From Kaistia soli DSM 19436 (GTDB lineage Bacteria; Pseudomonadota; Alphaproteobacteria; Rhizobiales; Kaistiaceae), in assembly GCF_900129325.1 (NCBI RefSeq), contig NZ_FQUP01000007.1, positions 126,501 through 190,500 of the forward strand: DNA of 64,000 nucleotides, given 5' to 3'. Position numbers and translations under genes: made by a program. The notes beneath the pieces were generated by a model. That model made no database searches. It had not been told where the DNA came from and saw nothing but the letters and a program-made list of their open reading frames with translations. This document shows positions 1,886-2,000 of this stretch, one piece after another; within the stretch, counting starts at the first letter, position 1; each line of letters begins with the position of its first letter.

Positions 1886-2000
1886 GGGAACGAACCTCCT
1901 CCCTCGTTCCCCGCGATTGGCGCGCGGCTGACCTCCTCCCCAGCCCAGCGCCCTTTATAGAGACGCCCGTCGACCTCCTCCCCGACGGGCGTCTTTTTTT
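1886..2000 (+). ncRNA. Triple-hairpin CcsR/cuckoo-type small RNA, 3' of the DUF1127 gene
   Basis: Three consecutive hairpins carry exactly the same loop, ACCTCCTCCC, at 1894-1903, 1931-1940 and 1973-1982. The stems are unrelated in sequence: GGGAACGA/TCGTTCCC (1886-1911), GGCTG/CAGCC with an outer GGCGC/GCGCC (1919-1952), and an 11-bp perfect stem GACGCCCGTCG/CGACGGGCGTC (1962-1993) followed by a T run. Conserved loops on diverged stems indicate selection on the exposed C-rich motif, which is complementary to Shine-Dalgarno-like sequence. This is the known layout of CcsR (cuckoo) RNAs, processed from the DUF1127 mRNA 3' region. Processing sites and expression are inferred. Confidence 0.85.
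1962..2000 (+). terminator. Rho-independent terminator of the DUF1127/small-RNA unit
   Basis: An 11-bp perfect stem (1962-1972 with 1983-1993), loop ACCTCCTCCC, then a run of seven T after the stem. It doubles as the third small-RNA hairpin. Confidence 0.9.

Follow-up and report, generated by a model that had tools for sequence, protein, structure and literature searches.

The three hairpins at 1876–1998 of the window were identified as a small RNA of the ar14 family (NfeR1-type), lying directly behind a short DUF1127 gene and downstream of a promoter region common to the DUF1127-ar14 units of the genome. Taken jointly, the evidence makes it very probable that this RNA is the 3′ end of the DUF1127 mRNA, transcribed under a LysR-type activator and released by an RNase, with loops that would block the ribosome-binding sites of target mRNAs. 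The window is the whole stretch analysed, comprising 64,000 nt of Kaistia soli DSM 19436 (NZ_FQUP01000007.1, positions 126,501–190,500, forward strand). The features of the locus, in window coordinates, were as follows.

1586–1659, + strand, promoter region common to the four DUF1127-ar14 units of the genome (sequence model R1, 63.2 bits)
1592–1605, + strand, candidate LysR-type (LsrB/VtlR-like) box TGCATCAAACGCAG (from the sequence; conserved in the promoter alignment)
1629–1634, + strand, −35-like element TGCTCA, putative, 37 nt downstream of the box start
1651–1656, + strand, −10-like element CTATCT, putative, with a predicted transcription start near 1663
1700–1707, + strand, ribosome-binding-site-like stretch AAGAAGGA (from the sequence)
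1717–1869, + strand, DUF1127 protein of 50 aa (PF06568, E 4e-14)
1876–1998, + strand, ar14 small RNA, NfeR1-type (Rfam RF02344, full model length)
1881–1916, + strand, hairpin 1, loop ACCTCCTCCC at 1894–1903, basal TCGC/GCGA stem (fold and covariation)
1919–1952, + strand, hairpin 2, loop ACCTCCTCCC at 1931–1940 (fold and covariation)
1959–1996, + strand, hairpin 3, loop ACCTCCTCCC at 1973–1982, followed by T residues to 2000 (fold and covariation)

Structure of the element

The three copies of ACCTCCTCCC, spaced by 37 and 42 nt and all on the + strand, are the only ones in the whole 64 kb window, for which dinucleotide shuffles gave a mean of 0.08 matches and three copies in none of 100. In the minimum-energy fold of 1870–2000 all three copies form 10-nt loops on three different stems. 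The fold energy is −62.4 kcal/mol, whereas shuffles average −34.3 (z −8.29) and none of the 200 went as low. A preliminary description of the locus had reported three identical loops on differing stems, and the exact count and the separate stems of the fold bear this out. It had placed the start of the element at 1886, which cuts off the base of hairpin 1; in Rfam the match extends over 1876–1998. Its reading of the last hairpin as the terminator also held, in that the stem of hairpin 3 runs into T residues, so that by shape the two together would be an intrinsic terminator. A terminator scan found none at the locus, but it permits loops of 3–8 nt only and the loop of hairpin 3 is 10 nt.

Family assignment

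The ar14 model (RF02344) scored 81.9 bits at 1876–1998 against a cut-off of 58.8, aligning over model positions 1–123 of 123. Members of this family are described as having three hairpins, each carrying an identical unpaired CCUCCUCCC anti-Shine-Dalgarno motif, on differing stems (PMC10746234), and the same was found here, with three hairpins, an identical CCUCCUCCC in each loop and unlike stems. The length of about 123 nt also corresponds to NfeR1 of Sinorhizobium meliloti, the Hfq-independent, 123 nt founder of the family (PMC10746234), whose length is given as 115 nt in PMC8844928. S. meliloti is reported to carry six copies of NfeR1-type RNA, one of which was reliably detected by Northern (PMC7143759). 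Three copies with exact loops, which had been singled out as a special layout, are thus the norm of the ar14 family rather than a variant.

The preliminary description had assigned the locus to the CcsR/cuckoo layout and had proposed a covariance search with the CcsR model. In the Rfam search CcsR1 (RF02791) scored 34.4 bits at the locus and did not reach its cut-off of 65.3, and membership of CcsR was rejected. Matches to ar7, 6C, CC3664 and suhB were likewise discarded as weaker, overlapping and under their own cut-offs, and the AbcR family ar15 was not among the locus matches up to E 1. The AbcR1 and AbcR2 RNAs resemble the present one in being small RNAs with anti-Shine-Dalgarno motifs, with AbcR1 reported to be activated by LsrB/VtlR, but they form a separate Rfam family (ar15).

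The layout itself stood. Short DUF1127 proteins are often accompanied by CcsR-like RNAs in alphaproteobacteria, an arrangement termed the CIN1 locus and credited to the cuckoo paper of Reinkensmeier and Giegerich in PMC10253847, from which the definition used here was taken. The locus has this arrangement, with a short DUF1127 gene at 1717–1869 followed by an RNA of anti-Shine-Dalgarno-loop hairpins that begins about 7 nt past the stop codon. The Pfam match confirms the earlier identification of the upstream gene; its start codon was picked from family members and the AAGAAGGA stretch. The closest described operon is ccaF1-CcsR1–4 of Rhodobacter sphaeroides, in which a DUF1127 gene also lies directly 5′ of anti-Shine-Dalgarno-loop hairpins in one operon (PMC10253847), but that operon is reported to have four homologous RNAs and an RpoHI/RpoHII promoter (PMC10253847), and the CcsR1 cut-off is not reached here. 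The locus is therefore ordinary in itself: its family is already modelled in Rfam, and its arrangement has been described before.

Copies, conservation and covariation

Five ar14 matches were found in the K. soli genome, four of them above the cut-off. The same genome has five Pfam DUF1127 places, four of which lie directly 5′ of the four ar14 copies above the cut-off. The fifth (L197, G000:C4:628819-628911) has a longer frame and no ar14 match nearby; about 230 nt from it, at C4:628512-628588, there is a weak suhB-like match (34.6 bits, below the cut-off). Another element of the genome, around 1501–1596 of L009 (G000:C4:1192640-1192735, − strand), has two anti-Shine-Dalgarno loops and 36.3 bits to ar14, below the cut-off. 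It lies directly behind a short reading frame outside the Pfam DUF1127 places of the genome, and no run of T was seen behind it.

Across 41 genomes (K. soli itself, 13 from its genus, 11 from its family and 16 from its order), ar14 was present at E ≤ 0.001 in 32 and above the cut-off in 20. Within the genus (K. soli and the 13 others), a DUF1127 gene, called in relatives by an HMM grown from the window protein rather than by Pfam, lies just upstream of 43 of the 46 ar14 matches, the exceptions being L009, L160 and L190. For genus copies above the cut-off the proportion was 39 of 40, with L160 the only exception. Tandem ar14 pairs about 80 nt apart were observed in two genomes of the family (L017, G022:C35:16440-16763; L027, G018:C16:81994-82326), which suggests local duplication.

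Covariation was assessed on 45 ar14 rows (44 distinct; 26 pairs) taken from the family of K. soli, with weaker and more distant places left out. Pairing was found in 97.9% of cells, and sliding the structure by 1–3 columns reduced it to 27.7–55.2%. Changes on both sides affected 90 cells compared with 20.6 in shuffles, and 16 pairs compared with 7.4. The number of further pair types (27 against 24.9 in shuffles, a value reached by 90 of 500) was not beyond shuffles in these rows. On these alignments, the predicted three-hairpin structure is held by covariation.

Loops and stems were then compared over seven syntenic loci, with synteny judged from flanking genes, of which L013 shares the LysR gene only. 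Differences were counted at 12 of the 630 loop positions compared (1.9%), at 204 of 1495 in the stems (13.6%) and at 150 of 410 elsewhere. Loops that vary far less than their stems are what a functional loop on a freely chosen stem would show, and the loss of loop identity with stems kept, which had been named as the outcome that would speak against the element, was not seen. A single changed loop occurs in each of two of the seven loci (L019, loop 2; L012, loop 1). The exact nine-base CCTCCTCCC is present three times in 27 of the 45 ar14 rows, twice in 13 and once in 5.

A relative retaining the RNA without the protein

At L160 (genome G013) the promoter is kept, DUF1127 is absent and the ar14 match starts 17 nt after the −10-like element, whereas in its counterpart L169 (G005) a DUF1127 gene lies between promoter and ar14, with about 200 nt more between the two. 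The loci align on both flanks (577 nt at 92.9% and 581 nt at 80.9%), over ar14 (95.2% over 125 nt) and over the promoter region (86.0% over 114 nt). Retention of the RNA without the protein argues for an RNA function of its own, and L160 constitutes a natural experiment separating the two.

Promoter of the DUF1127-ar14 units

Model R1 matched 1586–1659 as its sole site in the window up to E 10, a site that is itself among the 45 training rows. The box TGCATCAAACGCAG fits TGCA-N6-GCA(T) save for the last base, and its predicted position is about −72 to −59 relative to the putative start near 1663. In the nfeR1 promoter, reported to be activated by LsrB and repressed by NtrC, the LsrB site is given as TGCA-N6-GCAT at −72 to −60 (PMC10746234). 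In both promoters a LysR-type box, a candidate one here, and a −10-like element stand at comparable distances, but the −35-like element is TGCTCA here and CTTAGAC in PnfeR1. NfeR1 is also reported to have its own sigma-70 promoter, whereas here the DUF1127 gene lies between promoter and RNA; at L160, by exception, the promoter directly precedes the RNA. A promoter of the NfeR1 style directly 5′ of the RNA is absent, the common promoter preceding DUF1127, and a simple sigma-70 scan of 1500–2100 found no promoter. An own sigma-70 promoter is a feature of NfeR1 and not a criterion of the Rfam family ar14.

The same design was found in the upstream regions of 50 DUF1127 loci of the family, as TGCR-N6-GCA followed 37 nt on by an anchor TGCTC or TGCAC, a spacing that is partly imposed because the box was sought about 31–39 nt before the anchor. 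Box and anchor were present in 46 of the 50, followed in most by a CTATMT-like element, and the strict TGCA-N6-GCA occurred in 37 of 50 compared with 2.1 expected from dinucleotide shuffles.

A search of the K. soli genome with the promoter model, in which 150 of 2852 first-look candidates were scored, gave four strong sites of 52.7–63.2 bits, all before the four DUF1127-ar14 units; these scores are partly circular because the four sites are among the 45 promoters from which the model was built. The fifth match (16.5 bits) falls within a dnaJ-like coding frame and was rejected as chance, and matches six to eight, among the same 150 candidates, scored 12.2–13.4 bits. Across the order, the model matched 11 of the 101 genomes searched.

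The candidate LysR regulator

In the K. soli genome a LysR gene comes after trxB, which is where PMC7486931 places vtlR. VtlR is reported to activate DUF1127 genes in Brucella, and atu1667 of Agrobacterium, probably a DUF1127 gene judging from its stated Brucella orthologs, is likewise reported to be activated. These systems resemble the present one in a LysR-type activator of a short DUF1127-type gene, but an anti-Shine-Dalgarno RNA behind the gene is unmentioned in the parts of those accounts available to us. The box at 1592–1605 matches the VtlR motif, in the form in which we found it reported (CAATGCAGCCATGCA), in part only.

The AbcR family (ar15) is a neighbour of vtlR elsewhere. No ar15 match was obtained in the K. 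soli genome at E 0.001, in a search where the controls likewise gave no match, and behind the trxB-LysR pair (L210) ar15 scored 18.8 bits against a cut-off of 40. On visual inspection, the intergenic stretch there, at 142–278 of L210 (− strand), shows a VtlR-like promoter sequence along with a CTCCTCCC stretch; it may be an AbcR gene too diverged for Rfam to recognize.

Proposed mechanism and alternative explanations

From the conservation of the promoter and the NfeR1 and VtlR literature, a LysR activator of the VtlR/LsrB kind bound near 1592–1605 most likely drives transcription from about 1663. From there a single transcript would cross the DUF1127 gene and stop at the terminator (2000), with hairpin 3 also serving to end it. 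By analogy with the CcsR RNAs and the ccaF1 mRNA, the ar14 part would most likely be freed by RNase cleavage. Each single-stranded CCUCCUCCC loop would then pair with the ribosome-binding site of a target mRNA and block its translation. The preliminary description had read the loops as complementary to ribosome-binding sites with a likely role in translation regulation, and the description of the ar14/NfeR1 family agrees with this. NfeR1 is reported to silence ntrBC through pairing at the ntrB start region, its pairing at ribosome-binding sites is backed by reporter assays, and its three motifs are redundant in silencing (PMC10746234); by the same analogy, the three loops would be redundant here.

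The element could instead act mainly in cis, as a 3′ untranslated region that terminates and stabilizes the DUF1127 mRNA without regulating other mRNAs. Its start 7 nt past the stop codon and the position of 43 of 46 genus copies behind DUF1127 would fit such a role, but stabilization in cis needs no identical loops, and the loops are better kept than the stems. Moreover, L160 retains promoter and ar14 without the gene, and among the matches listed 71 of 132 alphaproteobacterial array clusters lack DUF1127 in the 400 nt upstream (for 66 of these 71 the full 400 nt of sequence was available). We therefore consider a role confined to cis improbable. An equally small probability is assigned to a CcsR-type array processed into one short RNA per hairpin, which the preliminary description had proposed from the spacing of the loops. 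The shared operon with DUF1127, as reported for ccaF1-CcsR, and the reported maturation of CcsR RNAs in Rhodobacter with the help of RNase E and CcaF1 (PMC8625941) are in keeping with such processing. Against it, CcsR1 falls below its cut-off and is itself a two-hairpin model, ar14 matches at full length, and NfeR1, at 123 or 115 nt, is one RNA with three hairpins. Loop spacing is uninformative on cleavage and hence gives no backing to separate RNAs per hairpin.

The earlier suggestion of an mRNA sponge or a translation regulator survives in its second half. Three identical motifs per RNA and four genome copies above the cut-off would suit titration of a protein or RNA by the loops as a decoy, but NfeR1 is reported to silence target mRNAs with redundant loops, and its reporter assays favour direct pairing at ribosome-binding sites; a decoy is accordingly the least probable of these alternatives. 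The preferred reading is that of an ar14 RNA derived from the DUF1127 transcript and acting on other mRNAs.

The box and the arrays beyond the order

When named genomes were scanned with a pattern, at least 120 loci matched; their orders were assigned from record titles, and expected box counts were derived from single-base shuffles. Among the matches listed, the box was found upstream of all 11 Rhizobiales arrays directly behind DUF1127 (0.23 expected) and, for Rhizobiales arrays that lack DUF1127, of 41 of the 65 examined (1.24 expected; 69 clusters). The Rhodobacterales had been chosen as the negative control for the box and came out positive: among the matches listed, it was found in 15 of 16 examined arrays directly behind DUF1127 (0.53 expected; 17 clusters). 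It was also present in one of two Rhodobacterales arrays without DUF1127 and four of five arrays of unclear order, and in none of eight non-alphaproteobacterial pattern matches, again among the matches listed. Clusters with DUF1127 more than 100 nt away (box in 3 of 20 Rhizobiales, 0 of 7 Rhodobacterales and 0 of 1 of unclear order among those listed) test something else, because for them the search covered only the sequence immediately preceding the loops.

At 16 of the 17 Rhodobacterales DUF1127-array loci among the matches listed, the box starts 36–37 nt before a −35-like TTGTGCA or TTGTTGC, with spacings of 14 to about 60 nt allowed and three negative distances at locus edges disregarded; the seventeenth, L055, ends before its promoter region. 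Of 10 Rhodobacterales loci scored with the ar14 model, 4 attained its cut-off. The 75-nt promoter model, run on 50 of the at least 120 named loci, matched eight (E up to 1), none of them Rhodobacterales, and only the short box and its spacing are therefore shared with that order. R. sphaeroides is absent from the loci compared.

Five Rhodobacterales loci (L133, L117, L085, L096 and L139) have DUF1127 genes followed by 10–14 exact CCTCCTCCC copies, mostly 37–66 nt apart; CcsR1–4, with its four RNAs, would have suggested shorter arrays. Outside the alphaproteobacteria, L045 (Streptomyces), L126, L156, L116 and L090 show even repeats of 15–33 nt that are apparently unrelated.

A literature search whose coverage excluded the cuckoo paper and the 2021 CcaF1 paper found neither the box spacing of Rhodobacterales DUF1127 arrays in print nor a paper joining CcaF1 or CcsR1 with VtlR; PMC12501420 mentions both CcaF1 and LsrB (one occurrence).

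Implications

From these sequence comparisons we tentatively propose that a LysR-type box, TGCR-N6-GCA, 36–37 nt upstream of the −35 element, may be ancestral to the anti-Shine-Dalgarno-hairpin (cuckoo) loci of Rhizobiales and Rhodobacterales, whatever the promoter core (sigma-70-like or RpoH-like) and with or without DUF1127. CcsR/ccaF1 would then be responsive to a VtlR/LsrB-like regulator, and free-standing NfeR1-type genes would descend from DUF1127 operons that lost the reading frame, unless the change went the other way. We judge this proposal to be possible and slightly short of an even chance. The small RNA families NfeR1 (in rhizobia) and CcsR (in Rhodobacter) have been studied apart, yet together with the DUF1127 genes under VtlR control they look like a single regulon built on one promoter design. 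The common promoter with its fixed spacing is the part worth following.
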